Virus record (IMG/VR): IMGVR_UViG_3300017971_003851
Coordinates: 1-30,888 of that record
Source: a virus
DNA: 30,888 nucleotides
Direction: 5' to 3' (one strand)
Positions 890 to 26,863 of this stretch are shown piece after piece (positions within the stretch are counted from its first letter, which is position 1; each line of letters opens with the position of its first letter). Position numbers and translations under genes: made by a program. The notes under the pieces were generated by a model. That model worked only from the letters and a program-made list of their open reading frames with translations, made no database searches and was not told the DNA's origin.

Positions 890-926
890 GTCATTTCTTT
901 TTGACAAAATTTGACAGACTTTGACA
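882..926. repeat. Phased TTTGWCA heptamer cluster (candidate operator/UAS)
   Basis: TTTGACA occurs three times in direct repeat at 900-906, 910-916 and 920-926, exactly one helical turn apart. An inverted copy, TTTGTCA, lies at 882-888. The cluster sits about 100-150 bp upstream of the -24/-12 promoter at 1028. That is the usual place for the upstream activating sites of sigma54 enhancer-binding proteins. The copies also contain TTGACA, the sigma70 -35 hexamer, but no -10 follows any of them at 16-18 bp on the plus strand. The same 10-bp-phased triplet recurs at 12045-12071. Confidence 0.6.
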
Positions 927-1027
927 AAATATGGCATCAAATCATGGCAATGGTATTTATAAAAAAATAGTGTCTTTGTAAGTCCTTATAATCACTCAAT
1001 AAAAAAAATATTGATTTTTGTTTATTA

Positions 1028-1044
1028 TTGGCATACCTATTGCT
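1028..1044 (+). promoter_or_regulatory. Sigma54-like (-24/-12) promoter
   Basis: The sequence TTGGCATACCTATTGCT matches the sigma54 consensus YTGGCAcg-N4-TTGCW, with the invariant GG (1030-1031) and GC (1042-1043) separated by the required 10 bases. The predicted transcript starts near 1055, about 38 bases before the ATG at 1093. A second copy at 12154-12170 shares TTGGCATA-N4-TTGCTCTATA and the upstream repeat layout. A TATAAT at 987-992 lacks a suitable -35 and is a weaker alternative. A phage-specific factor with a similar site cannot be excluded. Confidence 0.65.
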
Positions 1045-1092
1045 CTATACTAATAGCAGATAACAAAACAAACCCAAACAAAGGAGAATCAA

Positions 1093-1230
1093 ATGAGCTT
1101 CGACTTCAACAAAGAAAATGACATGGTAGCAATGGCTCAATTTACTGCTCAATTGGTTCGTGAAGGTGTTACATTCATCACCGTTTCCAATAACAATTAT
1201 TTCACCGTAACTCTTACAGGTGGGTTTTAA
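1093..1230 (+). CDS. Small hypothetical protein (45 aa), first gene of operon
   Basis: This 45-residue protein starts MSFDFNKEND and ends VTLTGGF. The ATG has a strong ribosome binding site (AAAGGAGAATCAA) and sits about 38 bases downstream of the predicted start of the -24/-12 promoter. It has no cysteine and no membrane segment; the second half is beta-prone (VTFITVSNNNYFTVTLTG). Its position directly behind the promoter and its strong Shine-Dalgarno sequence suggest high expression. The function is unknown. The hairpin element at 1235 follows its stop by four bases. Confidence 0.7.
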   Translation: MSFDFNKENDMVAMAQFTAQLVREGVTFITVSNNNYFTVTLTGGF

Positions 1231-1234
1231 AAAC

Positions 1235-1262
1235 GGGGGGGAAACCCCCTAGGCGAAATTAA
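1235..1262 (+). repeat. G-run/C-run hairpin with GGCGAAATTAA tail, copy 1
   Basis: Seven G, AAA, five C (1235-1249) form a compact hairpin, followed by TAGGCGAAATTAA and then the AAGGAG binding site of the next gene. Two more copies lie at 1818-1844 and 13501-13530. There is no U-tract, so it is not a standard intrinsic terminator. A role in mRNA processing, 3'-end protection or translation of the next gene is more likely. Confidence 0.75.
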
Positions 1263-1283
1263 CTTTATAATAAGGAGATCAAA

Positions 1284-1811
1284 ATGAAACAACTTACTGC
1301 TAATGATCATGCCCTTCTTGCCAAACGTGGAAAGATTGTAAACGGTTTCACCACTACCGTTAATACTGAAGTCCGTACTGCTGCTGACCGTTTCAAGGAT
1401 TTCAATTTTTCCCCTGCTCCTAAAAAGGTCAAGAAGGTAAAAAAGGCCAAGAAGGTTGCAAATCCTAATGTAAATCATCCCTTGGTTGGTTGTATGTTGC
1501 ATACCTCATGGGGATATGATATGACCATCAATGAATTCTGCAAAATTCTTGAAGTTTCCCCTACTGGCAAAACGGTTGTTTGTCAGATGCTTTATAAAGA
1601 AGGTTTCAATGGATTTCAAGGACCAGTAAAAGCAGGGAAAAAAACCTATGGACCTAAATTCCGTTTACGGGTCAAGGATTATGGTACTTGGAAATCCTTC
1701 AATGGTTCTTATCCTTTCATCGTAAGGGAAAACAAGGAAAAATCTTCAATGCGTATGGGTTATTTCGGTCTTCATAATGGTGGTGAAGTCTATGAAAACC
1801 ACATGGACTAA
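1284..1811 (+). CDS. Hypothetical phage protein with Lys-rich linker
   Basis: This 175-residue protein is not assigned to a named family. Residues 1-45 are polar. Residues 47-59 are a basic tract (KKVKKVKKAKKV), a possible nucleic-acid contact or flexible linker. The rest is a compact domain beginning around HTSWGYDMTINEFCKILEV (about 73-91), a WGYD.TxxxF pattern that I associate with uncharacterised phage proteins. The ribosome binding site AAGGAG lies within the hairpin leader described at 1235, and a second hairpin follows the stop. It probably acts early or at high level, given its promoter-proximal place. Confidence 0.75.
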   Translation: MKQLTANDHALLAKRGKIVNGFTTTVNTEVRTAADRFKDFNFSPAPKKVKKVKKAKKVANPNVNHPLVGCMLHTSWGYDMTINEFCKILEVSPTGKTVVCQMLYKEGFNGFQGPVKAGKKTYGPKFRLRVKDYGTWKSFNGSYPFIVRENKEKSSMRMGYFGLHNGGEVYENHMD

Positions 1812-1817
1812 CCACAA

Positions 1818-1844
1818 GGGGGGAAACCCCCTAGGCGAAATTAA
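1818..1844 (+). repeat. G-run/C-run hairpin with GGCGAAATTAA tail, copy 2
   Basis: Six G, AAA, five C (1818-1831) are followed by TAGGCGAAATTAA, then TCTTAATCAAGGAG and the ATG at 1866. The tail is identical to copy 1 through GGCGAAATTAA, and TTAATCAAGGAGT is shared with copy 3. Because both hairpin and tail are conserved while the neighbouring genes are unrelated, the element itself seems to be the selected unit. Confidence 0.75.
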
Positions 1845-1865
1845 ATCTTAATCAAGGAGTCTAAA

Positions 1866-2171
1866 ATGCCTGAACTTTTTATCAATGATGTTTATTCAAG
1901 CCAAACTGATCTTTATGAACTCATGGGTGAAGATGAAATGTTGGTTCTTTATGATGTTTATATTTTCGCCATTGCTGATGGGGAAATTTATCGCCATAGT
2001 CATGTTTTCAAAGGTCATGTACAGGATGAAGATGGGTTTGAACATCCTAACCGTAATGCTCAATATGATGCTGATCGTTTAGTGGATCAAATTCGTTCCA
2101 AGGGTAAAATCAATACTGATTATTGGGTTTGCATTGGTAACATTTCTGAAATTGAAATGAATGCTGCTTAA
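1866..2171 (+). CDS. Hypothetical acidic protein
   Basis: Not recognised; 101 residues and strongly acidic. The ATG follows AAGGAGTCTAAA. The N-terminal half contains a YELMGEDEMLVLYDVYIF core and a DGEIYRHSHVF hairpin; the end is NISEIEMNAA. There is no signal peptide, cysteine motif or membrane segment. It is cotranscribed with the SprT-like gene 15 bases downstream. Confidence 0.7.
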   Translation: MPELFINDVYSSQTDLYELMGEDEMLVLYDVYIFAIADGEIYRHSHVFKGHVQDEDGFEHPNRNAQYDADRLVDQIRSKGKINTDYWVCIGNISEIEMNAA

Positions 2172-2185
2172 GAAAGGATATTAAA

Positions 2186-2791
2186 ATGAAACTTGCTGAC
2201 TATCTTAAAAAAATCAATCTTTATGATCAAGTTGTTAATGGAGTTAAAAAATACTTTGGAACCAATACAGACATATTCTGTATGGTAGTTGCACGTATAG
2301 AAGATTGTGAATTTAAAATCATGAACAGGTCTAAACATATTGCAGGAACGTGTTTAGGGACTTCCCTTATTCGATTGCATGAAAAAGTAGCTGAACGTCC
2401 TGTTGACCGTAATAAAACAATGCTACATGAAATCGGTCATTTAATCCGTAATTGTGAAAGAAATTTTTATGGGGAAAGTGATTCAGGTGTTACTTTTCGT
2501 TATGTTAAAAAAGGTCCATTTACAGGATTGAAACAGGTACGAAAAAGAAGGTCTCCACATGGCAAGGAATGGAAATCCATAGTAACAGCTATTGGTGGAA
2601 CTCCTAAAACTTGTCATGATTATGATTACCTTCAGGGAAACCCAAGTCAATACAAACACAAATATACTTGCAAAGATTGTGGGTATGTTCACTATACCCA
2701 ACGTCTATTGAAAAATATGGATAGACGGTATCATAGTGGATGTAAACGTAAACCTCATGGTGGTCATTTTATTCATACTCAATTACGATAA
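2186..2791 (+). CDS. SprT-like zinc metalloprotease
   Basis: This 201-residue protein has the zincin signature HEIGH (residues 81-85) with a third candidate ligand in HGKEW (125-129). It also has a SprT-type zinc ribbon: C162-xx-C165 in TCKDCGY, with C186 and H183 nearby. SprT/Spartan family enzymes cleave DNA-bound or cross-linked proteins; phage members are uncharacterised, and a role in removing host DNA-binding proteins or repairing crosslinks is an inference. The start is an ATG with an AAAGGA site. It lies in the sigma54-like operon between unrelated small genes. Length and motif order fit the family. Confidence 0.85.
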   Translation: MKLADYLKKINLYDQVVNGVKKYFGTNTDIFCMVVARIEDCEFKIMNRSKHIAGTCLGTSLIRLHEKVAERPVDRNKTMLHEIGHLIRNCERNFYGESDSGVTFRYVKKGPFTGLKQVRKRRSPHGKEWKSIVTAIGGTPKTCHDYDYLQGNPSQYKHKYTCKDCGYVHYTQRLLKNMDRRYHSGCKRKPHGGHFIHTQLR

Positions 2792-2802
2792 AAGGAATAA
2801 AA

Positions 2803-2946
2803 ATGGTAAAAAGCTTGACAAACAGAAAGGAATCTGTTATGTGTACTGATATTATTGATATGGTAATCAAAGAAGTTGTCAATGATCTGTGTTATGATGC
2901 TATGATGTATTTTGTGGTTTTCTGCTCTTTCATCATTTTCATGTAA
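2803..2946 (+). CDS. Small putative membrane protein (47 aa)
   Basis: This 47-residue protein starts MVKSLTNRKE after AAAGGAATAAAA. The polar N-terminal part is followed by a hydrophobic C-terminal segment (MMYFVVFCSFIIFM) that would make a tail-anchored single membrane span. Its fit in the gap between two genes, with a proper binding site, supports a real gene. No homologue is recognised; small phage membrane peptides of this kind can be holin-like, superinfection-related or regulatory, and none of these is shown here. Confidence 0.6.
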   Translation: MVKSLTNRKESVMCTDIIDMVIKEVVNDLCYDAMMYFVVFCSFIIFM

Positions 2947-2955
2947 GGGGGAATC

Positions 2956-3258
2956 ATGATTAGAGACTATAAAGAGGGTGCTAAAGTTCAAGTTACCATT
3001 TATACTTTTCATCATATTCTGAATTCTTATAAGGCTACAGGATATCCAAATTTGAAATTCTGTAATCTTGTCAAGTCTTTGATTGACAAAGAGGGAACTG
3101 TTACCAAACGGTTCAAGCCGGGATATGAATTCAACGTGGAATGGCCTGTTCCATATAAACGTGAAGATGGAACCATGCAGGATATTACAATTCTACAAAT
3201 GAAAGATCATTGGGTTAAGCCTTGTGATTCCAACTATGAAATTATTAAAGGAGATTAA
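2956..3258 (+). CDS. Hypothetical protein
   Basis: Not recognised; 100 residues, starting MIRDYKEGAKVQVTIYTFHH after an AAGGGGGAATC site. Mixed alpha/beta character, with a basic middle (KRFKPGYEFNVEWPVPYKRE). No cysteine motif, signal or membrane segment. It ends three bases before the CreA-like gene and is probably cotranslated with it. Confidence 0.7.
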   Translation: MIRDYKEGAKVQVTIYTFHHILNSYKATGYPNLKFCNLVKSLIDKEGTVTKRFKPGYEFNVEWPVPYKREDGTMQDITILQMKDHWVKPCDSNYEIIKGD

Positions 3259-3261
3259 AAA

Positions 3262-3765
3262 ATGAAAAAGCAAATGTATTTTGTTGCAGGTATGTTGGTT
3301 GGGGTACTTATGATGATTGTCCTGTCAGTCAACAATTCCTATGCAGGACCAACTGTAGCAACTAAAATCGGTGAAGTGGAATGTGTCAAGCGTATGATGA
3401 GTGGCAATGATAAGATTCAGGTGATTCGAATTGTGGACCCTGATAATCCTTTTGTTGCTATCTTCTTTACAAGGATTGATAGTGGTAAAATCTTTGCTTT
3501 GGCAAATCCATCCAATACCGCTATTGCTGCAAGGTTGATCAAGCCTGTACCTGTAAAGGATGGTAAACAAATTGTGGATAAACGTGATGTGACCAATATA
3601 GCTAGCATCAGTCAATCCATTGGATCAAAGACAATGAAAATTGCAAGGTTCTATGATCCTGATATGAACACTCTTTGCTATTTGGTCTACACTACAAAGC
3701 TCATTGATGGATCATTGAAGCATTCTCTTTCTGTTGTGCCTTTGGGAATGCCTTTAACCCCTTAA
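3262..3765 (+). CDS. CreA-family exported protein
   Basis: This 167-residue protein has a clear Sec signal peptide (residues 1-28, KK then a hydrophobic core, ending NNSYA). The mature part aligns by eye with E. coli CreA throughout: IGEVECVKRMM against IGSVDTVFKMI, the SNTAIAA segment against SDAAISC, and above all the C-terminal block FYDPDMNTLCYLVY-KLIDGSLKHSLSVVPL against [30 protein letters not shown]. CreA is a small periplasmic protein of unknown biochemical function found in Gram-negative bacteria, next to creBCD in E. coli. The phage copy lies in a phage operon with no Cre regulators. It was presumably acquired from a host and would act in the periplasm of the infected cell. Confidence 0.85.
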   Translation: MKKQMYFVAGMLVGVLMMIVLSVNNSYAGPTVATKIGEVECVKRMMSGNDKIQVIRIVDPDNPFVAIFFTRIDSGKIFALANPSNTAIAARLIKPVPVKDGKQIVDKRDVTNIASISQSIGSKTMKIARFYDPDMNTLCYLVYTTKLIDGSLKHSLSVVPLGMPLTP

Positions 3766-3779
3766 TAAGGAATATTATT

Positions 3780-3977
3780 ATGTATGCTAAATGGATTGCA
3801 GAAGATTATTATGCCGGTCCTAATCACTCCAAAGAAATTTTAATAAAACATGGTGAGATTCGGAAAATCCATGCCAAAAAAGAGGATGATTATATCCTTG
3901 AAGGAAAAGACGGTAAGGGTTATTTCGGTTGGGTGAATGCCAAAAACATTGAAGTTTTGGAGTCAAAAAATGCCTAG
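3780..3977 (+). CDS. Hypothetical small protein
   Basis: Not recognised; 65 residues, with an ATG after AATAAGGAATATT. The composition suggests a small beta-barrel (GEIRKIHAKKEDDYILEGKDGKGYFGWVNAKNIEVL), rather like an SH3-type fold. Its last eight bases overlap the start of the DUF262 gene, so the two are translationally coupled. Confidence 0.68.
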   Translation: MYAKWIAEDYYAGPNHSKEILIKHGEIRKIHAKKEDDYILEGKDGKGYFGWVNAKNIEVLESKNA

Positions 3978-4848
3978 ACGTAAACTGACTGAAAAAGAAA
4001 AAGCTGATCGTAAAGAAAAAATGAGAATCAAAGCAGCAATCCATCAAAAAGATTATGCTTTGAACACAAGCCTTGAAGACTGTAAGAATACCATTAAAAG
4101 AGGAAGCATTGGTAAACCTACCTATTTTTTCAAGACAGGGGATAGGGTTACATGGGGTGCATGGGATAAAAATATTGTCATTAAATCTTTTGATAATGGC
4201 ATGTATTATCTATGTGTAAGAGTTGGATGGCATGAAAGATATGGCAAGAGAGTAGGTGTTAAATGTAATATGGATTATTGCCTTTGGGCTGAAATAAGAC
4301 CCTATAAAACCAAAGAAGAAATGGAAGAAAATCCAAGGGTTGAAGAAGATGATGATATATTTTTTAATTATGGACAACGTGATATTCAATCAATTCTTTT
4401 TCAAATGTATGGTGGTGCTGGAATTGATTTAAGTCCTGACTATCAAAGGGAATTGATATGGACTGAAGAACAGAAAGTCTCCCTAATTGATTCCATTTTT
4501 AAAAACATTGATATTGGTAAATTCACCATTATCAGAAGAAAATATCAAGAAGGACAATTAAATCATTATGAAGTATTAGATGGTAAACAAAGAATTCAGG
4601 CATTGCTTGATTTCTATGAATGCCGTTTTAAATATAAAGGATTGACCTATAATGATATGAATTGGAGGGATAGAGTCCATTTCAAAGGATATTCAATCAA
4701 TTGGGCTGAAACTGAACCCTTGACAGATGAACAGAAATACCGTTATTTCCTTAAGTTGAATGTAAGTGGTGTTCCTATTCCTAAAGAACATCTTGACAAA
4801 GTGCGTAAAATGTGGTTAGATGTACAAACAAAAAAACTGAAAGGATAA
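3970..4848 (+). CDS. DUF262 domain protein (ParB/Srx-like nuclease fold)
   Basis: The ATG at 3970 is preferred over an in-frame ATG at 3937 because TTGGAG lies eight bases upstream; it gives 292 residues. Residues 1-130 are a basic N-terminal region not recognised. The DUF262 core follows: PDYQR (157-161), a W-T-x-EQ-x-x-LIDSI segment (164-176), and VLDGKQR (202-208), the signature of this ParB-like family. DUF262 is the N-terminal domain of GmrSD, a restriction system against modified DNA, but also occurs alone in many phages. Here the GmrD-type HNH domain is absent, so a restriction role is not supported. Possible roles include DNA binding or nucleotide-dependent regulation. Confidence 0.8.
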   Translation: MPRRKLTEKEKADRKEKMRIKAAIHQKDYALNTSLEDCKNTIKRGSIGKPTYFFKTGDRVTWGAWDKNIVIKSFDNGMYYLCVRVGWHERYGKRVGVKCNMDYCLWAEIRPYKTKEEMEENPRVEEDDDIFFNYGQRDIQSILFQMYGGAGIDLSPDYQRELIWTEEQKVSLIDSIFKNIDIGKFTIIRRKYQEGQLNHYEVLDGKQRIQALLDFYECRFKYKGLTYNDMNWRDRVHFKGYSINWAETEPLTDEQKYRYFLKLNVSGVPIPKEHLDKVRKMWLDVQTKKLKG

Positions 4849-4851
4849 ACA

Positions 4852-5346
4852 ATGGATACCATATTTCTTTTTCTAGCTTGGGTTGCAGGTGTTATTGCTT
4901 TCTTGTGGTTTTGTCTTGGTTTTGTGTATTTTCTCTATAAACGCAAATTTAATAAAACCTTAAATAGAGTGAAATCTGAAATCAAGCATTCTATTTTAGA
5001 ATCATTGGAAGAAACAGAACGTCTAAGAAGTAATGAAATTCCTTCTGATGAAGATATACTTCTTTACTATAAGATGTATTGTAAGAAGTTTGAATTAGAC
5101 ACAAGGGATACATGGACAACCTTGAAACCCATGACTCTTGATGAATGGGAATCAACAGTTAAAGATGTAGATGGTCTTGTATTTGGTTGGAGATTCATGA
5201 TCTCAAGAACTTCTGATGTAATGGTAGGATTTCCACCTAATTGCACCTTCCATCGTTACCGTGATTATAAGGCAATGGTAGAAGCAGAAGACAATGCATT
5301 TTTTGATCGTATTACTCAAGAAAGTGAAACAGAAAATGAAACATAG
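4852..5346 (+). CDS. Hypothetical single-span membrane protein
   Basis: This 164-residue protein starts MDTIFLFLAW after GAAAGGATAAACA. Residues 3-29 are a strongly hydrophobic transmembrane segment followed by basic residues (YKRKFNKTLNR), so the soluble part is predicted to be cytoplasmic. A helical stretch (30-65) leads to a globular domain with WTTLKPMTLDEWEST and FGWRFMIS. Not recognised. Its 3' end overlaps the next gene by eight bases. Confidence 0.72.
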   Translation: MDTIFLFLAWVAGVIAFLWFCLGFVYFLYKRKFNKTLNRVKSEIKHSILESLEETERLRSNEIPSDEDILLYYKMYCKKFELDTRDTWTTLKPMTLDEWESTVKDVDGLVFGWRFMISRTSDVMVGFPPNCTFHRYRDYKAMVEAEDNAFFDRITQESETENET

Positions 5347-5533
5347 TAAAGAAGATAAAAGAACAGATGAACATATCGAATATCAAAAACGATGGGGGAA
5401 TTATAAATCCGATAAATGGAAAAAAAGGACTATTTTACGTGCTGAAATACAAGATATGCTTCATATATTCCATTTATCAAAAAAAGAATTAAGTGAAGTA
5501 AAAAATAAAATATTGGAGATATCATTAAGATGA
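5339..5533 (+). CDS. Small basic hypothetical protein
   Basis: The start at 5339 (MKHSKEDKRTDE) is chosen over an upstream in-frame ATG at 5294, which would overlap the preceding gene by more than 50 bases; ATGAAACATAG is a coupled stop/start. The result is 64 residues, rich in Lys/Arg/Glu and helical (WGNYKSDKWKKRTILRAEIQDMLHIFHLSKKELSEVK). No known domain. The stop overlaps the following ATG (ATGA). Confidence 0.6.
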   Translation, partial: KHSKEDKRTDEHIEYQKRWGNYKSDKWKKRTILRAEIQDMLHIFHLSKKELSEVKNKILEISLR

Positions 5534-5775
5534 ATTTCATACAAGATAAAGTACATAACATGCCACTTCAAGACATGGTTCAATTGACAAAGGATTATGA
5601 ACTATTTGAAAAGCAAGGTGCCATTGGTGATTGTCTGTTACGTGAAACAGCAGAAAAATTAGCATCTAAAAATGGTCTTACAGAAGGGTCAATGGTTCTT
5701 TGGATGGATAGAATAGCTTTTGAGGCATACCGATACCTTGCACAAGTTTTTATAATGGAATCAGGATTAATTTAA
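5530..5775 (+). CDS. Hypothetical helical protein
   Basis: Not recognised; 81 residues, predicted mostly helical (MNFIQDKVHNMPLQDMVQLTKDYELFEKQGAIGD). It starts by ATGA overlap, with TTGGAGATATCATTAAG upstream. The spacing and coupling argue that it is genuine. Confidence 0.65.
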   Translation: MNFIQDKVHNMPLQDMVQLTKDYELFEKQGAIGDCLLRETAEKLASKNGLTEGSMVLWMDRIAFEAYRYLAQVFIMESGLI

Positions 5776-5777
5776 AA

Positions 5778-5960
5778 ATGGCATTGATTTTACATACAGA
5801 CTATGATATAGAATGGAATAAATGGAATGATGCCATTATAACTTATCATCCTAAAGGATGGAAATTCATTGGATGTGGAACCAATAACAAATATCATAAT
5901 CTTAAAGTAGCAATAGAGACTATGGTAAAAGTGATACAGGTGAAAGACAATGGACATTGA
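5778..5960 (+). CDS. Hypothetical small protein
   Basis: Not recognised; 60 residues containing DYDIEWNKWNDAIITYHPKGWKFIG, a small beta-rich unit. The Shine-Dalgarno is weak (CAGGATTAATTTAAAA), so translation probably depends on the preceding gene, which ends two bases before the ATG. It overlaps the next gene by 11 bases. Confidence 0.58.
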   Translation: MALILHTDYDIEWNKWNDAIITYHPKGWKFIGCGTNNKYHNLKVAIETMVKVIQVKDNGH

Positions 5961-6144
5961 CACAATAGAAGCACTATATAATGCAGGAGCATTTGAAGGA
6001 TTAGTTACTGAATGTCCTGATTGTAGTGGTATTGGTGATGAACAATATACCTGTACTACCTGTTGGGGTCAAGGTGGAAACATTCAAATTGATGTTAATG
6101 AAGTAATAGAAAACCTAATTGAAGGAATAAGAGATGAAATTTAA
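5950..6144 (+). CDS. Small DnaJ-type zinc-finger protein
   Basis: This 64-residue protein holds two CxxCxGxG-like knuckles (CPDCSGIG and CTTCWGQGG, residues 22-43), the pattern of the DnaJ cysteine-rich domain, but only two of the usual four repeats. It would bind one zinc ion. Such mini-proteins occur in phages and plasmids; the partner is unknown. The flanks are acidic and helical. It overlaps the RNA ligase gene by 11 bases, so the two are coupled. Confidence 0.72.
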   Translation: MDIDTIEALYNAGAFEGLVTECPDCSGIGDEQYTCTTCWGQGGNIQIDVNEVIENLIEGIRDEI

Positions 6145-7435
6145 GAAACCTATAAATGAAAACTATTGTGCTACTGTTGTCAAAATAAAGAATGTTGTCC
6201 AATTGGACAACTGTGACAACATTCAGGGTACTATTATCTTTGGTAACAACATCATCATCAGCAAAGATGTAAATGTTGGTGATATAGGTGTTTACTTCCC
6301 TGCTGAAACACAATTGAGTCATGAATACACTAACTATAACAACCTTTATCGTCATTCAGAACTAAATTATGATGATACGAAAAAGGGATATCTAGAAGAC
6401 AATAGACGTATCAGAACCATGAAGTTAAGAGGCAATAAATCAATGGGTCTCTTTATGCCTTTGACTTCTCTTGAATTTGTTATTGATGCAGATGAACTAT
6501 CAGAAGGAGATATCTTTGATGAAATCAAAAATATTCCTATCTGTAATAAATATATCGTACCTGTAAAGAATTCAGGTGGTGCTAATAAACAGAAAAAGAA
6601 GTTAAAGAAGATATCTAAACTGATTGATGGTCAGTTTAGATTCCATGATGATACTGCTCAATTTGGTAAGAATGCTCATCGTTTTAAACCTGATGACATT
6701 ATGAGCATTACCTATAAGCTTCATGGAACATCTGTTATCATTTCAAATATCCTATGCAAGAAGAAATTGAACCTGTTCAATAAATTTCTTAAGCTTATTG
6801 GAGTTAAGGTTATTGATACTGAATATGATAACATTTATTCTTCAAGAAAAGTAATCAAGAATGATGATCTCAATACTTCAAAAAACAGTTATTATGAGAT
6901 TGATATTTGGGGTCTTGCAAATGACAAGATTAAAGAATTCCTGCTTGATGGAATGACTGTCTATGCAGAAATTGTTGGTCATCTTCCTAATGGAGCATAT
7001 ATCCAAAAATCATATGATTATGGATGTGGCAAAACAGATTATGAAGTCTATATTTATCGTATCACATATACTAATCCATCAGGAAATGTATTTGAATTCT
7101 CTGCAAAGCAAGTTCAGGATTGGTGTAAAGAACGTGGTCTGAAAGCTGTTCCTGAACTATATTATGGAAAGGTAAGAGATATCTTTCAGGTATACACTTA
7201 TGATGATGGTCTTGATCTTGCCGATAATTTAATCAATTATCTAAAACAAGTATATCTTGAGCAAGACTGTTATATGTGTAAAAATAAACTTCCTGCTGAA
7301 GGTATTGTTGTCAGAAAAGAAGCAAATGACAATCAATCTTATAAACTGAAAAGCTTCAGATTCCTTAAAAGAGAAACTGATTTACTTGATAAGGGTGAAG
7401 AAGATATTGAAGAATCTCAAAAAGGAGATGAATAA
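6134..7435 (+). CDS. RNA ligase, Rnl5/DraRnl-like
   Basis: This 433-residue protein is an ATP-dependent nucleotidyltransferase ligase. The N-terminal 65 residues (ATVVKIKN...GDIGVYFPAETQLSHEY) resemble the OB-like domain that precedes the catalytic domain in the Deinococcus Rnl5 (DRB0094) family. Motif I is KLHGTS with the predicted adenylated Lys195. A motif III region (GMTVYAEIVGHLPNGAYI), motif IV (EGIVVRKE) and motif V (YKLKSFRFL) follow in order. Rnl5 seals 3'-OH/5'-phosphate nicks in RNA duplexes. The gene stands four genes upstream of RtcB and two genes upstream of an RlaP-like gene, so an RNA repair role is likely. It has AAGGA seven bases before the ATG and overlaps the next gene by one base. 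Confidence 0.85.
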   Translation: MKFKKPINENYCATVVKIKNVVQLDNCDNIQGTIIFGNNIIISKDVNVGDIGVYFPAETQLSHEYTNYNNLYRHSELNYDDTKKGYLEDNRRIRTMKLRGNKSMGLFMPLTSLEFVIDADELSEGDIFDEIKNIPICNKYIVPVKNSGGANKQKKKLKKISKLIDGQFRFHDDTAQFGKNAHRFKPDDIMSITYKLHGTSVIISNILCKKKLNLFNKFLKLIGVKVIDTEYDNIYSSRKVIKNDDLNTSKNSYYEIDIWGLANDKIKEFLLDGMTVYAEIVGHLPNGAYIQKSYDYGCGKTDYEVYIYRITYTNPSGNVFEFSAKQVQDWCKERGLKAVPELYYGKVRDIFQVYTYDDGLDLADNLINYLKQVYLEQDCYMCKNKLPAEGIVVRKEANDNQSYKLKSFRFLKRETDLLDKGEEDIEESQKGDE

Positions 7436-7623
7436 TGGCACATGGATTTAAGGTTCTTTTGGTCTATGAACATGAATATGAAGATTGTGGGGAACCTACT
7501 GAACAGGATATCATTGCCGAATATCCTATTGATGAAGTAAAAGGTGGAAAGGTGAAATTCCTTCCCCCAACTAACTTACTCAAACGTGATCTTTTAGCAT
7601 ATGTCAATAAAGGAGATGCATGA
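7435..7623 (+). CDS. Hypothetical small protein between RNA repair genes
   Basis: Not recognised; 62 residues, acidic N-terminal half (HEYEDCGEPTEQDIIAEY) and a basic C-terminal half. It is joined to its neighbours by TAATG and ATGA overlaps and carries its own AAGGAG site, so it is translated with the RNA ligase and the RlaP-like gene. It may be an accessory of the repair enzymes, by position only. Confidence 0.65.
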   Translation: MAHGFKVLLVYEHEYEDCGEPTEQDIIAEYPIDEVKGGKVKFLPPTNLLKRDLLAYVNKGDA

Positions 7624-8603
7624 GTAAATTACATATACATGTAAGAAACCTAGAACATTCCATTGATTTTGAATCCTTGGGATTGCATGAAACACAAGTA
7701 ATTGTTCTATCTGATGCAGGATCAAACTTGTATGGTACTGCTACACCTGAATCTGATGTTGATTATTTGGGTGTATTTGTGCCTACCAAAAGGCAATTGC
7801 TTTTGAATAATTTCCCTAAGCAGGTTCATTTGCCTAAAAGTAGTGGATTAGATGCTCAACTATGGTCTATCCACTACTTTCTAAAATTGGCCTGTCAAGG
7901 TGAAACAATGGCTATGGATTTGTTACATGCTCCATTTTCCTGTTGGAAAATATTCAATAATGACATATGGCCTGAATTGTATCATAATAGCCATTTATTT
8001 TATACTAAAGAAATGAAATCTTTTGTATCATATGCAAGGAAACAGGCAGCTAAATATGGTATCAAAGGAACAAGGATTGAAGCTTATGAGGATGTAATTA
8101 AGTTTCTTTCAAACTATGCCCCATATAATGCTAAATTAAAGGATGTATGGGACAAATTACCTGCTGAAAGTGAACATATTCATTTTCTTAATACTGAACC
8201 TTTCAAGATGTATCAGGTATGTGGTAAAAAATACCAAGAAACTGTCAAGGTTAGTTATGCTCTTGAACACTTAAAAAAGGACTTGACAGGATATGGTAGT
8301 CGTGCTATGCTTGCTAGGAAGAATGAAGGAGTTGATTGGAAAGCTATTTCTCATGCACTTAGATCAGCATATCAGGTATGGGATATCTTAACAATTGGAA
8401 CATATACCTTCCCATGTCCTAATGCAGATTACCTTAGAGACATAAAACAAGGCAAGATTGATTTTACAGAAGTGCAAAATTGGCTTGAACTTTTAATGAA
8501 AAATATTGAGGAAATGATTCCTAAATCCAATTTACCTGATGAAGTTGATAAAGAATATTGGGATGATTGGCTCATAGAAACTCTTAATAGAAACCTTTTC
8601 TGA
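7620..8603 (+). CDS. RlaP-like nucleotidyltransferase (pol beta superfamily)
   Basis: This 327-residue protein has the nucleotidyltransferase core GSNLYGTATPESDVDYLG (residues 34-51), with the G-S helix start and the D46/D48 metal-binding pair of the polymerase beta superfamily. The long helical C-terminal part and the arrangement fit the RlaP (RNA repair pathway polymerase beta) family, known from genomic association with RNA ligases and RtcB; its exact reaction is not established. Here it lies between an Rnl5-like ligase and RtcB, the expected context. It may prepare damaged RNA ends by adding or processing nucleotides (inference). The start overlaps the previous stop (ATGA) with AAAGGAG upstream. 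Confidence 0.82.
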   Translation: MSKLHIHVRNLEHSIDFESLGLHETQVIVLSDAGSNLYGTATPESDVDYLGVFVPTKRQLLLNNFPKQVHLPKSSGLDAQLWSIHYFLKLACQGETMAMDLLHAPFSCWKIFNNDIWPELYHNSHLFYTKEMKSFVSYARKQAAKYGIKGTRIEAYEDVIKFLSNYAPYNAKLKDVWDKLPAESEHIHFLNTEPFKMYQVCGKKYQETVKVSYALEHLKKDLTGYGSRAMLARKNEGVDWKAISHALRSAYQVWDILTIGTYTFPCPNADYLRDIKQGKIDFTEVQNWLELLMKNIEEMIPKSNLPDEVDKEYWDDWLIETLNRNLF

Positions 8604-8613
8604 AAGGATAAAC

Positions 8614-9360
8614 ATGTCTGATGTAAAATTAAAAACTAAAAATCTTATGACGTTTGTTTTTTGTGTTATTATCTTTGGTGGTGGTATGATATTTGGTTTA
8701 TTTTTATATCAGGAAAAGATACTACCTAAAAAGATACCTGCTCCTGAAATTGTTGAAAAGGTAGTTGAAAAAGAAATAATCCACTATGTTGAAAGAAGCA
8801 AGACTAAAACAAGTGATTTCTTGCTTCATCTCAATCCTGATATTGATCCTGCATTAGCAGAAATCATTGCTAATAGTGTTGATGAAATGAGCAAAAAATA
8901 TCAGCTACCAAGAAAGCTTGTATGCTCTATTATTAGAAAAGAAAGCAACATGAATCCCTTTGCTAAAAGCAGGGTTGGTGCTGTAGGTCTTATGCAAGTA
9001 ATGCCTAAAATCCATGCTGAAAGGTATAAAGGTCAAAATTTATGGCATATAAAAACCAATATTGATGTTGGGTGTTCTATTTTTCGGGAATACCTTGACA
9101 AAGAAAATGGAAACATGTATAATACCTTTCATAGATACCTTTCTAAGAATGCCACAAAGGATCAACTTAATGATTATGCAGGTGATATTTATGAAAATTG
9201 GTCGAAACTTGAAATGTTCGATTATCTGTCTATTGCAGAACGTCAAGCAAATGCAAATGGTAAAGACAAAATAGAAGAAGTCCCTATTGAAGAAGAATTA
9301 CCTGAAACCATAATAGAAATAGAAGGGAAAGAAAATGAAAAAGGGATTCACATTAATTGA
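8614..9360 (+). CDS. Membrane-anchored lytic transglycosylase (SLT domain)
   Basis: This 248-residue protein has an N-terminal transmembrane segment (residues 12-32, basic residues before it), a coiled linker with EKVVEKE, and an SLT/lysozyme-like domain with the catalytic Glu in RKESNMNPFAKS (Glu110), followed by GAVGLMQVMP (122-131). These are the motifs of family 1 lytic transglycosylases, which cleave peptidoglycan with 1,6-anhydro product formation. The C-terminus is an acidic tail. In a phage it may open the wall at entry or lysis; no holin or spanin is recognised beside it. It overlaps the prepilin-like gene by 26 bases. Confidence 0.87.
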   Translation: MSDVKLKTKNLMTFVFCVIIFGGGMIFGLFLYQEKILPKKIPAPEIVEKVVEKEIIHYVERSKTKTSDFLLHLNPDIDPALAEIIANSVDEMSKKYQLPRKLVCSIIRKESNMNPFAKSRVGAVGLMQVMPKIHAERYKGQNLWHIKTNIDVGCSIFREYLDKENGNMYNTFHRYLSKNATKDQLNDYAGDIYENWSKLEMFDYLSIAERQANANGKDKIEEVPIEEELPETIIEIEGKENEKGIHIN

Positions 9361-9577
9361 AGTATTAGTTGTAATTACTATGATATTTATATTCATATCC
9401 ATTGTTGTGACAAATTGGTATGCATTTAAAGGTCATGATGAATCTAATGATGTTGTTATTGTCGAAAAGAAAACAGCAGAATCATTTCCTGAAAAGAAAA
9501 GTGTTGAAAAGGAAGTTGTTGAAAAGGCCAAAGAAGCATATGATTATAACCAATGGGAACAGGAAAGCAAATACTAA
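9335..9577 (+). CDS. Prepilin-like peptide with type IV pilin N-terminus
   Basis: This 80-residue protein starts MKKGFTLIEVLVVITMIFIF, an excellent class III signal: basic leader, Gly4, Phe5 at mature +1 and Glu9 at mature +5, then a hydrophobic helix to about residue 30. Prepilin peptidase of the host could cut after Gly4 and methylate Phe. The remaining 50 residues are charged and Lys/Glu-rich, with no pilin globular domain. It may be a minor pseudopilin mimic, or a simple membrane peptide whose N-terminus converges on the motif. It overlaps the transglycosylase gene and its stop overlaps the rtcB start (TAATG). Confidence 0.7.
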   Translation: MKKGFTLIEVLVVITMIFIFISIVVTNWYAFKGHDESNDVVIVEKKTAESFPEKKSVEKEVVEKAKEAYDYNQWEQESKY

Positions 9578-10785
9578 TGATAGACATAAAATTCTCTAAA
9601 AAATTCAATGTCAATACTCATGCATTTAATGGTGAAGGTGGTAAACTGAATGTTCCTATGATGCTATGGTTGTCAGAAGTTGAATGGGATGCATTACAGC
9701 AGTTGGAACATGCTGCATCATTGCCTTTCGTTCATCATCATGTAGCAGGAATGCCTGATATGCATTATGGGTTTGGTGTTCCCATTGGTAGTGTTATTCC
9801 TACCAAGGGATATATTATTCCTAATGCTGTAGGTGTGGATATTGGATGTGGTATGTGTTGTGTTAAAACTGATCTTACTCATATAGATAAGCCTGTTTTG
9901 AAGTCTATTATGGGTGATATAAGAAAAGCTGTTCCTGTTGGGTATAAACACAATAAAAAATCTGAAGGTATGCCACCTATTATTTCCATGCCTGATCTAT
10001 CTAAATCTGTTGTTGCAAAAGAATGGGATTCTGCTTCTAAACAGCTAGGAACTTTAGGTGGTGGTAATCACTTCATTGAAATCCAAAAAGGGGATGATGG
10101 ATTTATCTATGTCATGATTCATTCAGGAAGTAGAAACCTTGGAAAGAAAATTGCTGATCATTATAACAATATTGCTAAAGAAATGAATGAAAAATGGAAA
10201 TCTATTGTTCCTAAAAATTGGGATTTAGCATTTCTTCCCTTTCATGATGATATTGGTCAAATGTATTATCATGAAATGGTTTATGCTTGTGATTTTGCAT
10301 ATTGGAATAGAAAAGTTATGATGAAAAGAATCAAGACTTGTATTACAAATCATGTTGATGCCAAATTCAGTAACTTCATTAATATTCATCATAATTTTGC
10401 TGATATGGAAAATCATTTTGGAGAAAACGTATTAGTTCATCGAAAAGGAGCAACTAGAGCAAAAGAAGGTGAATTAGGTTTGATTCCTGGAAGTCAAGGT
10501 ACTGCAAGCTATATTGTTAAGGGTAAAGGTAATGCAAATAGCTTTCATTCCTGTTCTCATGGAGCAGGAAGATTGATGAGCAGAAGAAAAGCAAAAGAAA
10601 CCCTTGATCTTAAAATGGAAAAGAAGATATTGGATGATCAAGGTATTATTCATTCAGTACGAAACTTGAGTGATCTTGATGAGGCAAGTAGTGCCTATAA
10701 AGACATTGGAACTGTTATGGATCATCAAGAAGACCTTGTAGAAATCGTAACTGAATTAAAGCCATTGGCAGTTATAAAGGGGTAA
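9577..10785 (+). CDS. rtcB: RtcB RNA-splicing/repair ligase
   Basis: The start at 9577 is chosen because it overlaps the previous stop and has AGGAAAG ten bases upstream; the ATG at 9553 has no binding site. The 402-residue length matches E. coli RtcB (408). The catalytic pattern is complete: GVDIGCGM (86-93, Mn ligands Asp88 and Cys91), LGGGNHFIEI (160-169), HSGSRNLG (182-189), SCSHGAGRLMSR (325-336) with the guanylylated His328, and the terminal DEASSAYKDI motif. RtcB joins 2',3'-cyclic phosphate (or 3'-phosphate) and 5'-OH ends with GTP. This complements the Rnl5-like enzyme, so the operon covers both kinds of RNA breaks. In Enterobacteria rtcB is sigma54/RtcR controlled. Confidence 0.95.
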   Translation: MIDIKFSKKFNVNTHAFNGEGGKLNVPMMLWLSEVEWDALQQLEHAASLPFVHHHVAGMPDMHYGFGVPIGSVIPTKGYIIPNAVGVDIGCGMCCVKTDLTHIDKPVLKSIMGDIRKAVPVGYKHNKKSEGMPPIISMPDLSKSVVAKEWDSASKQLGTLGGGNHFIEIQKGDDGFIYVMIHSGSRNLGKKIADHYNNIAKEMNEKWKSIVPKNWDLAFLPFHDDIGQMYYHEMVYACDFAYWNRKVMMKRIKTCITNHVDAKFSNFINIHHNFADMENHFGENVLVHRKGATRAKEGELGLIPGSQGTASYIVKGKGNANSFHSCSHGAGRLMSRRKAKETLDLKMEKKILDDQGIIHSVRNLSDLDEASSAYKDIGTVMDHQEDLVEIVTELKPLAVIKG

Positions 10786-10787
10786 TT

Positions 10788-10979
10788 ATGAGTGCAAGGT
10801 ATTTAATTTCAAATGAACAATTAGAAAGTTTAGTCAAAATGATTCAACTAGGTCACAAATATAAAGCAATTGACCTACTTGAAAAAGAAGTAAAGCAACA
10901 ATATGTTGGATATTCTGATGGTGATGTAGAAAGTGATGCTATAAGAATTCAAATGGATCGAAATCATTGTAACTGTTAA
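10788..10979 (+). CDS. Hypothetical small protein
   Basis: Not recognised; 63 residues, helical (MSARYLISNEQLESLVKMIQLGHKYKAIDLLEKEV). It starts two bases after rtcB stops, with AAAGGGG upstream, and ends MDRNHCNC. Transcription with rtcB is clear; a functional link is not shown. Confidence 0.65.
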   Translation: MSARYLISNEQLESLVKMIQLGHKYKAIDLLEKEVKQQYVGYSDGDVESDAIRIQMDRNHCNC

Positions 10980-10990
10980 AGGAGATTATT

Positions 10991-11548
10991 ATGGGCTGTT
11001 TTAGCTATATGTGTCAAGTATGTGGTAATCCTATTGTATCTGATTCTGAACGTGGTCAGAAATGTATTCTCTATCTTTTAAAAGATGGTAAAGTCATTGA
11101 AAAAATGGAAGGGGAATATGATTCCTATGGCAGGGTTTTTGATGAGAATGGAGAATCCATTGAATGGGATACACCTTGGGGTGAGATTGTAGAACTTCAT
11201 TTTAATCATAAAAACAATGATGGTATTGCTGCATTTCATTATAATTGTTATAAAAAATTTGATCATATTGATCCTCAAACAATATCAGATGATGACCCTG
11301 AACAAGGTTGGGGTAGTTTTTATAAACAGAAAACACCATACAAAGGTGGAAGGAAGATAGAAATTCATGGTACTGGAAACATTCTATCTTTTTTGATAGA
11401 TACAGAAGAAAAGAGAAAAGTCAAAGAAGTCCTTGATGTGATGACACAAAAATTCACAAGTGGAAATGAGATTCCTGTACCTCAAAATACAATCACAAGG
11501 AAGGAATGGAATATAATACGTCCCATTCTTGAAAAGGAGTTGAAATGA
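10991..11548 (+). CDS. Hypothetical phage protein with N-terminal zinc motif
   Basis: This 185-residue protein starts MGCFSYMCQVCGNPI after AAAGGAGATTATT. The start resembles a conserved family of uncharacterised phage and bacterial proteins that begin with MGCFS-x-x-C-x-x-CG and contain a later FHYNCY. These Cys/His residues (C8, C11, and H and C near 76-79) could hold one zinc ion. The middle is beta-rich with WDTPWGEI. No enzymatic motif is seen. Its stop overlaps the ATG of the next gene (ATGA). Confidence 0.7.
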   Translation: MGCFSYMCQVCGNPIVSDSERGQKCILYLLKDGKVIEKMEGEYDSYGRVFDENGESIEWDTPWGEIVELHFNHKNNDGIAAFHYNCYKKFDHIDPQTISDDDPEQGWGSFYKQKTPYKGGRKIEIHGTGNILSFLIDTEEKRKVKEVLDVMTQKFTSGNEIPVPQNTITRKEWNIIRPILEKELK

Positions 11549-11712
11549 GGGGAATGAAATGCATAGACAGGATATATGATCCTGATTTAGATATGTGGTG
11601 GGGTCTATTTCAAATTGAGGATGAAGTAGGAAAAATACGATTTAGAATACCTATTAATGAAGAAGACTTTGAAATAGGTAAAATATATTTTGCTAAGTTT
11701 TATGAGGCATAA
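11545..11712 (+). CDS. Small hypothetical protein (55 aa)
   Basis: This 55-residue protein (MRGMKCIDRIYDPDLDMWWG...) starts at an ATGA overlap with AAAAGGAGTTGAA upstream and ends directly against the ATG at 11713. Both junctions and the strong binding site support it. It looks like a single beta-sheet domain (WWGLFQIEDEVGKIRFRIPI); the function is unknown. Confidence 0.65.
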   Translation: MRGMKCIDRIYDPDLDMWWGLFQIEDEVGKIRFRIPINEEDFEIGKIYFAKFYEA

Positions 11713-12039
11713 ATGGCTAAAATAGAAACACATTGTAAAGATTGTTTACAGGTCTTTGGAAAAGAATATAGAGAAATTCATGAATGGTTGGATGAATATG
11801 CTAAACAGTATAATCCTATGCTCTATTTTGAGCTTCATAGAAAATTCAGGCATCATGATGATGGTGTTAAACAAGTTGAAGTGGAATTTGGATACTATGC
11901 TGCTCAAGCAGCAAAATTGCATATTATAAGAGATAATGAACTATACGTGAATTTCGATATCAATACGTTAAGGGAAGATGATATAGAAGACCTATACCAA
12001 AGAGCATTAGAATTTTGTCATGATAACATCTATAATTGA
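11713..12039 (+). CDS. Hypothetical protein, last gene of first operon
   Basis: This 108-residue protein contains IHEWLDEYAKQY (22-33) and HRKFRHHDDGV (41-51), followed by a segment rich in Ala (YYAAQAAKLHII). This pattern resembles a small uncharacterised family found in phages and bacteria (DUF6915-like, tentative). It has two Cys at the N-terminus (CKDC). It begins immediately after the previous stop. Its end contains one of the TTTGTCA heptamers (12014-12020), so the control region of the next operon may reach into it. Confidence 0.68.
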   Translation: MAKIETHCKDCLQVFGKEYREIHEWLDEYAKQYNPMLYFELHRKFRHHDDGVKQVEVEFGYYAAQAAKLHIIRDNELYVNFDINTLREDDIEDLYQRALEFCHDNIYN

Positions 12040-12044
12040 CTTAT

Positions 12045-12071
12045 TTTGTCAAACTTTGACATAATTTGTCA
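12045..12071. repeat. Phased TTTGWCA heptamers, second cluster
   Basis: TTTGTCA (12045-12051), TTTGACA (12055-12061) and TTTGTCA (12065-12071) are spaced exactly 10 bases apart. The first two form the near-perfect palindrome TGTCAAACTTTGACA (12047-12061). An additional half-site TTGAC lies at 12035-12039. The cluster is about 85-110 bp upstream of the -24/-12 promoter at 12154, the same relation as at 900-926 and 1028. It is a candidate binding site for an activator or repressor common to both operons. Confidence 0.6.
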
Positions 12072-12102: not shown

Positions 12103-12153
12103 ACCTAAATTCTGTAAGTGCTTGATTTTATTAGATGCAGATTTTTTTCATTG

Positions 12154-12170
12154 TTGGCATAGGAATTGCT
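12154..12170 (+). promoter_or_regulatory. Sigma54-like (-24/-12) promoter, second copy
   Basis: TTGGCATAGGAATTGCT matches YTGGCAcg-N4-TTGCW with the GG (12156-12157) to GC (12168-12169) spacing of 10. It shares TTGGCATA-N4-TTGCTCTATA with the site at 1028. TGTAAGTSCTT is also shared, 43 bases upstream of the GG here (12113) and 53 there (977), a shift of one helical turn. The start of transcription is predicted near 12181, leaving a leader of about 36 bases before the ATG at 12217. Confidence 0.65.
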
Positions 12171-12216
12171 CTATATATATGTCATGGAATCGAACTCTAA
12201 TAAAAAGGAAATTAAA

Positions 12217-13494
12217 ATGACTGAAAAAATCGTAGAGTCCATTGACATTCCTGCTTACAAAGTTTCCTATCTGACCAAGAAGATTGAAAAGATGAACCGC
12301 AAAGCCTTGAAAATGGGTTGTGATCCCTTGGTTCTGACTTTTGACAATGAGCATGTTCTTGAGTATTGGGAACATCCCCAAACTGGTCATAAACTGACTT
12401 CCCCCATCATTATTGAAATGGTTACTGCCACTTTGACCTACAACATTCCCATCATTGAAGGGTATGAGCTTGTTGCCAAATTGGACATTTTTCATGGGGA
12501 AGATGGAAATCAGGTTTTGATTTCTGCTGTTCCTGATGCTGTTGTTCCTGAAAAATGGCAAAATGCCACTTCCATTCAATGTGATCATTGTGGATGGAAC
12601 CGCAATCGCCATCACTCTGTTCTGCTTCGGGAAATTGAGACCAATGAGTATAAGGAAGTTGGTAGCACCTGTGTTAAAGATTTTTTCGGTCTTGATCCTT
12701 CCGGTTTTATGTTCATGGCATCCATCAAGTTTCATGGTATCGTTGGTGGAATCAAAGATGAAGATTGCATGAAGGGTGGACGTAGGATTTATTCCTATCC
12801 TTTGAATTATGTCCTTGGTTATGCTTCTGCTGTTATCAATCAATTTGGTTGGGCAAGCAAAAAATACGCTTATGATTTTGGTGGAAATTCTACTTGCAAT
12901 CGTGTTTGGGATAACCTTGAACCTTACCGTGGAATGCCCCGTAGTGAATTTGTTCAGATTTCTGATGAGGATCATGCACTTGCTGACAAGATCATTGAAT
13001 ACTACAAAAACCTTGATCCTGAAGGAAATGATTACCTGCTGAACTTGGTTAAGCTTGCCAAGCTGAATTATGTTCCTTCTAAGTTCATGGGATTTGCCGT
13101 TTCCATGATTAATTCCTATAAAAATGCAATGGAAAAAATCGAATACAAGAAAAAACAAGATGAAGAACGTGCCAATGAACCTGAATCCAATTATGTTGGT
13201 GTAATTGGGGAACGTCTGAAGGATGTACGGGTTGAAGTTACCTTTGCCAAGGAAATTGAAACCATGTATGGCATGAGCACTCTTTATGCCTTTAAAGATG
13301 CTCTTGGAAACATCTTCAAGACCTTCTATTCAGGAACTTCGATTGAGCTTAAAAATGGGGATGTGGTCCTTTTAACGGGTACGATTAAAAAGCATAATGA
13401 GTATCAGGGACGTAAAGAGACCATGCTTAATCGCATCATCGTGAAAGATGCCCCTGAAGAACTGATTGCTGTTGAAGAATTTGCAGTAGCCTAA
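12217..13494 (+). CDS. Conserved phage/plasmid-type zinc and OB-like protein
   Basis: The ATG at 12217 is chosen for its AAAAGGAAATT site and because earlier in-frame starts (12166, 12184) overlap the promoter or the predicted start of transcription. The 425-residue protein has an N-terminal domain starting with IPAYKVSYLTKKIEKMNRKA, a zinc-type segment CDHCGWNRNR (122-131) paired with VGSTCVKDF (148-156), a helical middle, and a C-terminal beta-domain (about 345-412) with VVLLTGTIKKHNEYQGRKETMLNR, OB-like. I recognise this architecture from unnamed phage and plasmid proteins but know no function; nucleic-acid binding is plausible. Codons are richer in C and G at third positions than in neighbours, suggesting strong expression. 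Confidence 0.8.
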   Translation: MTEKIVESIDIPAYKVSYLTKKIEKMNRKALKMGCDPLVLTFDNEHVLEYWEHPQTGHKLTSPIIIEMVTATLTYNIPIIEGYELVAKLDIFHGEDGNQVLISAVPDAVVPEKWQNATSIQCDHCGWNRNRHHSVLLREIETNEYKEVGSTCVKDFFGLDPSGFMFMASIKFHGIVGGIKDEDCMKGGRRIYSYPLNYVLGYASAVINQFGWASKKYAYDFGGNSTCNRVWDNLEPYRGMPRSEFVQISDEDHALADKIIEYYKNLDPEGNDYLLNLVKLAKLNYVPSKFMGFAVSMINSYKNAMEKIEYKKKQDEERANEPESNYVGVIGERLKDVRVEVTFAKEIETMYGMSTLYAFKDALGNIFKTFYSGTSIELKNGDVVLLTGTIKKHNEYQGRKETMLNRIIVKDAPEELIAVEEFAVA

Positions 13495-13500
13495 ACCAAA

Positions 13501-13530
13501 GGGGGGTAACTCCCCCCAAGGCGAAATTAA
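13501..13530 (+). repeat. G-run/C-run hairpin with GGCGAAATTAA tail, copy 3
   Basis: Six G, TAACT, six C (13501-13517) are followed by AAGGCGAAATTAA and CTTAATCAAGGAG before the ATG at 13551. The loop differs from copies 1 and 2 while base pairing and the tail are kept, which is compensating variation in favour of an RNA function. As at 1235, it follows the first gene after a -24/-12 promoter. Confidence 0.75.
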
Positions 13531-13550
13531 CCTTAATCAAGGAGTTTAAA

Positions 13551-13739
13551 ATGAATGAATGTATTATTACCCAAACCCTTATTTGCCCTCATTCTGAAAT
13601 AAGTGGTAAAATATGCTCTGCATGTAAGCTACCTGATTCCAATTGTAAATTCTGTGGGGGAACTGATTATAAACATTATCTAAATTGCCCTTCATGGAAA
13701 TATCTTATTGAAAGAGAAAAAAGATTGCTTGACTCCTGA
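13551..13739 (+). CDS. Cysteine-rich mini-protein
   Basis: This 62-residue protein has seven Cys in the first 50 residues (LICPHS, ICSACKLPDSNCKFCGG, LNCPSW), enough for two zinc knuckles. The ATG follows AAGGAGTTTAAA. No named family; probably a zinc-stabilised binding module. Confidence 0.68.
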   Translation: MNECIITQTLICPHSEISGKICSACKLPDSNCKFCGGTDYKHYLNCPSWKYLIEREKRLLDS

Positions 13740-13797
13740 TAAATTTAATGATATAAAAAAAGTCTAATTAGAAATTATTATTATAAAGGATAGATCA

Positions 13798-14004
13798 ATG
13801 AGTAAAAAGCCAAGTGGTAAAAAAAACAAGCAACCTTATTTGAGAGAAAAAATCATTACCGTTCATTGTCAAAAATGTCCTGCTTTCATTGATGAAAAGT
13901 ATGTGGAATTCATTAACATTGAGGAAGATTTTCAGGGATTTGATATACTGACATTCAGATGCCCTAAATGTGGAACCCAACAAAAATCAAAAAGGTTTGG
14001 ATAA
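13798..14004 (+). CDS. Zinc-ribbon mini-protein
   Basis: This 68-residue protein has a basic N-terminus (MSKKPSGKKNKQPY) and a two-knuckle zinc ribbon: HCQKC (23-27) and CPKCG (54-58). AAAGGATAGATCA precedes the ATG. Probably nucleic-acid or protein binding; not further assignable. Confidence 0.68.
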   Translation: MSKKPSGKKNKQPYLREKIITVHCQKCPAFIDEKYVEFINIEEDFQGFDILTFRCPKCGTQQKSKRFG

Positions 14005-14005
14005 A

Positions 14006-14230
14006 ATGATTGATATCAATAAGTCTGTTCAAACAAAAAGTGGTAAACGTGTTATAAACCTTCAATATGTGCCATTAAATGGCATTGGAAATGAAGTCAC
14101 TTTTCCAATTAAAGGAACCATCGTTTTACGTGAAAAACCATTTAAAACAACTTATAATGTTTGGACTAAAGATGGTTTGAATGATCCTGTTTGGAATAGT
14201 GAACCTGAAAATGATATCGTAAACATATAA
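14006..14230 (+). CDS. Hypothetical small protein
   Basis: The ATG at 14006 is preferred over one at 13970, which lies inside the preceding gene and lacks a site of its own; TTTGGATAAA precedes 14006. It has 74 residues and is beta-rich (KRVINLQYVPLNGIGNEVTFPIKGTIV...TYNVWTKDGLND). Not recognised. Confidence 0.65.
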   Translation: MIDINKSVQTKSGKRVINLQYVPLNGIGNEVTFPIKGTIVLREKPFKTTYNVWTKDGLNDPVWNSEPENDIVNI

Positions 14231-14244
14231 ATAAGGATAATAAC

Positions 14245-14523
14245 ATGAATGATTCTAAATATGTTGTAGTATCTAATAAACCCATGAATAAAGGTGGAAT
14301 TGAAAAATTGGTTGTATTTGATGCTTCCTTGAATCACATTGATATGGCTAAGGCAATGGGTAGACTTGGATATTCTTTCATCATATCAGCAGGATTCATT
14401 GATGAATTCATGAATTGTTTTGGATCATCTATGACATGCAGGTGTTCAACAAGGGGGGATATTGATACTATCATGCTCCATGAAATGCTAAATATAGATG
14501 ATAAGGAATTAAAATTTAAATAG
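14245..14523 (+). CDS. Hypothetical protein upstream of tRNA
   Basis: Not recognised; 92 residues starting MNDSKYVVVSNKPMNKGG after AAGGATAATAAC. It has a hydrophobic centre (YSFIISAGFIDEFMNCF) and the segment MTCRCSTRGDID. The G of its stop codon is the first base of the tRNA-like gene, so RNA processing at the tRNA 5' end would trim the message there. Confidence 0.68.
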   Translation: MNDSKYVVVSNKPMNKGGIEKLVVFDASLNHIDMAKAMGRLGYSFIISAGFIDEFMNCFGSSMTCRCSTRGDIDTIMLHEMLNIDDKELKFK

Positions 14524-14612: not shown

Positions 14613-14632
14613 CTTTAAAAGGAAGGTGAATC

Positions 14633-14884: not shown

Positions 14885-14909
14885 AAAGATATCTGATATA
14901 CACTTTTTA

Positions 14910-14965: not shown

Positions 14966-14984
14966 GTAACTTTAGGAGAAACCA

Positions 14985-15605: not shown

Positions 15606-15623
15606 TCTTGAAAGGAAGTACAA

Positions 15624-26862: not shown

Positions 26863-26863
26863 T

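Follow-up and report, generated by a model that had tools for sequence, protein, structure and literature searches.

Two phage operons in the analyzed DNA are each preceded by a -24/-12 promoter of the sigma54 type and, further upstream, by a paired-dyad array like those of bacterial pilA promoters next to pilR. The whole stretch analyzed, here called the window, is a virus record of 30,888 bases with a GC content of 31.8%. Judging from this architecture, host PilR and sigma54 probably transcribe both operons through pilA-like enhancer-promoters.

Promoters and upstream arrays of the two operons

The 22-mer TTGGCATA-N4-TTGCTCTATA, matched in full as TTGGCATANNNNTTGCTCTATA, has exactly two copies in the record, both on the plus strand and each heading a run of plus-strand genes (Table 1). 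It did not occur in any of 500 dinucleotide-preserving shuffles of the window, and none of 100 shuffles held two copies of the full pattern, even with three mismatches tolerated. Both cores show the canonical GG-N10-GC spacing and fit the TGGCAC-N5-TTGCW type of -24/-12 element used by sigma54 (RpoN). Strict sites (TGGCA-N6-TTGCW) number two against 0.15 expected from such shuffles, of which 3 in 500 had at least two. If transcription starts about 12 nt after the GC of the -12 element, the predicted leaders measure 38 nt before the ATG at 1093 (promoter 1) and 36 nt before the ATG at 12217 (promoter 2). A preliminary description had reported the motif twice with exact spacing and with predicted starts about 36 to 38 bases ahead of the first genes; the exact matches, the shuffle controls and the leader lengths bear this out.

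Upstream of each promoter, at a distance of 83 to 92 bp, lies a four-box array, TGACW-N5-TGWCA-N5-TGACA-N5-TGKCA, composed of two adjacent 15-bp dyads; shuffling the window 500 times never produced it. Paired dyads are the usual form of the binding site of NtrC-type sigma54 activators, and the enhancers of such activators normally lie 80 to 200 bp from the start. The sigma54 reading proposed in the preliminary description is supported computationally, because an independent NtrC-type enhancer precedes both promoters at the normal distance and is absent from the 500 shuffles. Array 1 falls inside the interval (900-1055) to which that description had assigned the first promoter, but the enhancer itself had gone undescribed.

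The arrays were initially apparent as three TTTGWCA boxes at exact 10-bp steps (900/910/920 and 12045/12055/12065). This stricter pattern matched nothing in virus contigs, because the true unit is an alternating TGACA/TGTCA dyad; comparison with virus loci sharing the 22-mer gave its general form, TGACW-N5-TGWCA-N5/6-TGACA-N5-TGKCA. Array 1 is imperfect, its second and fourth boxes each being one base off the alternating form, and it falls within the D2 repeat family. A comparable layout is known from Myxococcus xanthus, where the NtrC-type regulator NmpR binds GCGCA-N5-TGCGC ahead of sigma54 promoters, one of which has a pair of sites spaced by 5 nt (PMC11841059). That regulon differs from the phage arrangement in its box sequence and in serving host genes, with no phage involved.

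Between enhancer and promoter, both units contain an IHF-like sequence (Table 1). Virus locus L009 has a perfect IHF element at the place matching that of promoter 2. Across the set of loci, perfect sites occur in 2 of 13 against 0.31 expected, a suggestive but overall weak indication of IHF involvement.

Table 1. Features of the window discussed in the text
Feature	Position	Strand	Remarks
Enhancer array 1	902-936	.	TGACA AAATT TGACA GACTT TGACA AAATA TGGCA; candidate PilR-type upstream activating sequence
IHF-like site, weak	1004-1016	-	AATCAATATTTTT; 1 mismatch; between enhancer 1 and promoter 1; alone not above chance
Sigma54-type -24/-12 promoter 1	1028-1049	+	Core TGGCATACCTATTGCT at 1029-1044; predicted start about 1055
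Operon 1	1093-12039	+	Same-strand gene run; predicted single transcript
First gene of operon 1	1093-1230	+	45 aa
SprT-like protein	2186-2791	+	Operon 1
GmrSD N-terminal domain protein	3937-4848	+	Operon 1
RNA ligase	6134-7435	+	Operon 1
RlaP nucleotidyltransferase	7620-8603	+	Operon 1
SLT transglycosylase	8614-9360	+	Operon 1
RtcB ligase	9553-10785	+	Operon 1
Enhancer array 2	12037-12071	.	TGACT TATTT TGTCA AACTT TGACA TAATT TGTCA; candidate PilR-type upstream activating sequence
IHF consensus, perfect	12115-12127	-	AATCAAGCACTTA; between enhancer 2 and promoter 2
Sigma54-type -24/-12 promoter 2	12154-12175	+	Core TGGCATAGGAATTGCT at 12155-12170; predicted start about 12181
Operon 2	12217-17655	+	425-aa protein first, then small genes and tRNA-like RNA; predicted single transcript
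425-aa phage protein	12217-13494	+	PHROG 2319; relatives in Aeromonas, Vibrio, Ruegeria and Streptomyces phages
tRNA-like RNA	14522-14609	+	Operon 2
Intercistronic element, three copies	1236-1300, 1818-1882, 13503-13567	+	Both operons
Minus-strand gene block	17644-30786	-	

Recurrence of the unit in virus contigs and bacterial pilA promoters

When 2.9 million virus contigs were scanned for just the paired dyad, with no promoter required and hence as a fair test, 62 loci emerged, against 2 for the reversed pattern used as a control. Strict sigma54 sites (TGGC-N7-TTGC, both directions) numbered 25 within 225 bp downstream of these arrays, whereas the following 1,275 bp had 4, which corresponds to a roughly 35-fold higher density near the arrays. 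A second scan, for one dyad 80 to 110 bp ahead of TTGGCAY-N5-TTGC, gave 38 virus contigs (some of the contigs are near-identical copies). The preliminary description had called sigma54 control rare in phages; control of the type seen here is no isolated case, being common to dozens of virus contigs.

At both window promoters, as in L009 and in L004 with its near copies, 83 to 107 bp separate the array from the -24 element downstream of it; a second L009 promoter has a distance of 63 bp. A single array stands between two divergent sigma54 promoters in L009, L013 and L167, and elsewhere the L009 phage carries one more promoter of this kind, its third. An alignment of the window and L009 promoters is possible, although the L009 record contains no detectable relative of the window proteins. 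The related loci L004 and L044 differ little in either the array or the -24/-12 element; read as footprinting, this conservation would be weak, because the spacer is largely unchanged too. At four further loci (L165, L171, L176 and L179), the unit precedes genes resembling the small terminase subunit, followed in L179 by a peptidase-like protein. In some phages, the unit may control packaging instead of early genes.

A search of about 85,000 prokaryote species, with one genome per species, for the combined array and promoter pattern gave seven loci, from Desulfobacterota, Aminicenantes and Acidobacteriota. Type IV pilin genes (pilA) of Desulfobacterota account for two of these first bacterial matches, L019 and L020. 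One dyad, followed at the same distance by a sigma54 site, is present in 36 of 142 Aminicenantia genomes, the reversed control giving 0, and a pilin motif follows within 600 bp in 28 of the 29 Aminicenantia loci fetched (L088 to L116); in the exception, L089, the first gene seems by its sequence to encode a PilZ-type protein. Four of six Aminicenantia genomes examined have a sigma54 activator gene immediately upstream on the same strand. At one locus, L158, the translations read in the order pilB-pilT-pilC-pilS-pilR-enhancer-promoter-pilA-second pilin. The PilR name of the adjacent activator rests on this gene order, because the NCBIfam matches listed for it include no PilR model, the best being AtoC, below cutoff.

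We consider the window enhancer best called PilR-type, that is, a candidate site of the form seen in pilA promoters adjoining pilR, because dyad and promoter precede pilins in Aminicenantia with pilS-pilR adjoining; both arrays have this form, array 1 with its two deviating boxes. The match is to pilA promoters of other bacteria, and PilR sites in the phage's own host may differ. The site appears to be clade-dependent rather than universal, because the dyad-promoter pattern was found in 1 of 193 genomes of one Desulfobacterota class. Some bacterial matches precede genes other than pilins; in Aminicenantia, L077 and L089 carry the unit ahead of apparent HD-GYP and PilZ proteins, respectively, which suggests that the PilR regulon may include c-di-GMP-related genes.

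In Geobacter, pilR adjoins pilA, which is RpoN dependent (PMC2725144), and in Pseudomonas, PilS-PilR controls pilA, PilR sites being described there as TGT-N11-type sequences with GTCT elements nearby (PMC6058289). Phage units and pilA promoters (Pseudomonas, Geobacter and Aminicenantia) have in common 15-bp dyads about 70 to 110 bp before a canonical -24/-12 element and, in some, a candidate IHF site in between; with Aminicenantia and some Desulfobacterota, the TGACA-N5-TGTCA boxes are identical. In contrast to pilA promoters, the viral units head phage operons and never a pilin (0 of 47 with readable downstream DNA, a 48th being cut off by the contig end; no pilin motif anywhere in the 48 loci checked), and a viral array sometimes serves two divergent promoters, as in the three loci above. 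For the suggestion made earlier that the phage may respond to a host signal, this computational match to pilA promoters provides a candidate, PilR.

Candidate activator and alternatives

If PilR is the activator, the host response regulator, phosphorylated by PilS, would bind at about 90 bp upstream, where the two TGACA-N5-TGTCA dyads lie side by side. The DNA would bend or loop, with IHF assisting at promoter 2, and the AAA+ domain of PilR would remodel the sigma54 polymerase waiting at -24/-12. Transcription of the operons would begin at the predicted starts, and about 16.5 kb of phage genes would join the host pilus regulon, to be expressed when PilS-PilR is active. Beyond the window, we lean toward the view that a widespread and so far unrecognized class of phages on piliated bacteria has captured the PilR-sigma54 enhancer-promoter module and so brought its operons into the host regulon for pili and surface sensing, with infection timing following host piliation.

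Phage gene expression in uncultured hosts would in that case be wired to PilS-PilR, the controller of the type IV pilus, which is itself a frequent phage receptor. It would also offer a host clue for metagenomic phages, whose host should have rpoN, pilS and pilR. The rule behind it, a pair of TGACA-N5-TGTCA dyads some 90 bp ahead of -24/-12, lends itself to testing in laboratory phage-host pairs. Sigma54 promoters and PilR enhancers are already known; within the open literature searched, which mostly excludes subscription papers, phage operons were not found to be reported as controlled by sigma54 or PilR, nor was the use of these elements by many phages.

An activator other than PilR, acting at the same site of genuine sigma54 promoters, is unlikely. 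It could be an NtrC-type protein encoded by the phage outside a partial record, and the window record is possibly a fragment, or it could be another host regulator. The dyad form is common to NtrC-type regulators such as NmpR (PMC11841059), and some bacterial copies of the unit stand ahead of HD-GYP-like, PilZ-like or other genes. However, a sigma54 activator gene (PF00158) is present in none of eight virus records with the unit (the window and seven others, all possibly fragments), and the great majority of Aminicenantia units are promoters of pilin genes, with pilS-pilR adjoining.

RtcB, RlaP and an RNA ligase are among the products of operon 1, and the rtcBA operons of cells depend on sigma54 and RtcR (PMC9650030, PMC7790460). 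Were host RtcR the activator, the phage would respond to RNA damage. We hold this to be very improbable and dropped it: the TGWCA boxes are absent from the rtcB-rtcR intergenic region of E. coli, the one such region compared, and the arrays match pilA promoters instead. The resemblance to rtcBA operons extends to the sigma54 promoter and to its control of an RtcB ligase gene, but the window lacks a sigma54 activator gene, and RtcB lies 8.5 kb into the phage operon. Moreover, operon 2 has the same promoter with no recognized RNA repair genes, and eight other viral RNA-ligase loci have neither array nor sigma54 site, their whole records being free of the dyad.

Even less probable is that the arrays act mainly as decoys, titrating host PilR so that pilA expression falls and pilus-dependent superinfecting phages are excluded, with transcription secondary. 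The arrays do carry several sites, and phages commonly use type IV pili as receptors (e.g., PMC6024842). A pure decoy, however, needs neither the correctly spaced -24/-12 element nor the gene start that follow each window array, and viral sigma54 sites cluster just downstream of arrays; a decoy role in addition to transcription is possible. Least credible of all is a chance resemblance of phage-specific late or middle promoters, or of overlapping sigma70 promoters and repressor operators, to sigma54 promoters: a -35 reading of TTGACA boxes is possible, but a scan of the whole record for further motif copies gave two only, not the dozens of a late-promoter pattern, sigma70-like sites are no commoner than in shuffles, and the pairing of TGWCA array and -24/-12 element recurs in virus contigs of 28 to 62% GC.

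Gene content of the operons and the remaining window

The nearest isolate phages share just 27 to 44% protein identity with the window, and no DNA similarity to isolate phages was found. Many products of the two operons are unknown proteins. With the 425-aa protein of operon 2 as the query for relatives, one distant locus was obtained. In operon 1, the RNA ligase, RlaP and RtcB genes lie close together (6134-10785, plus strand) and form an RNA repair set; sets of this kind occur in large phages.

The minus-strand block encodes a radical SAM protein, two asparagine-synthase-like proteins, a GNAT protein, a thymidylate-synthase-like protein, an epimerase, a sulfotransferase and methyltransferases, and looks like a biosynthetic or DNA-modification cluster. 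Within the window, no strict sigma54 site lies ahead of it.

The tRNA-like RNA of operon 2 has an acceptor stem (GGGGGAT/ATCCCCC) followed by ACCA, the T-arm GTTCAATTC and the anticodon loop CTGTAAA. It was missed by ARAGORN and scored 28.4 bits with the Rfam tRNA-Sec model (cutoff, 47); it is possibly a degenerate or unusual phage tRNA. The repeated intercistronic element consists of a G-run/C-run hairpin and then AGGCGAAATTAA, about 10 to 15 nt ahead of a Shine-Dalgarno sequence. Its first copy has a terminator score on the minus strand, and the element may serve RNA processing or stability.
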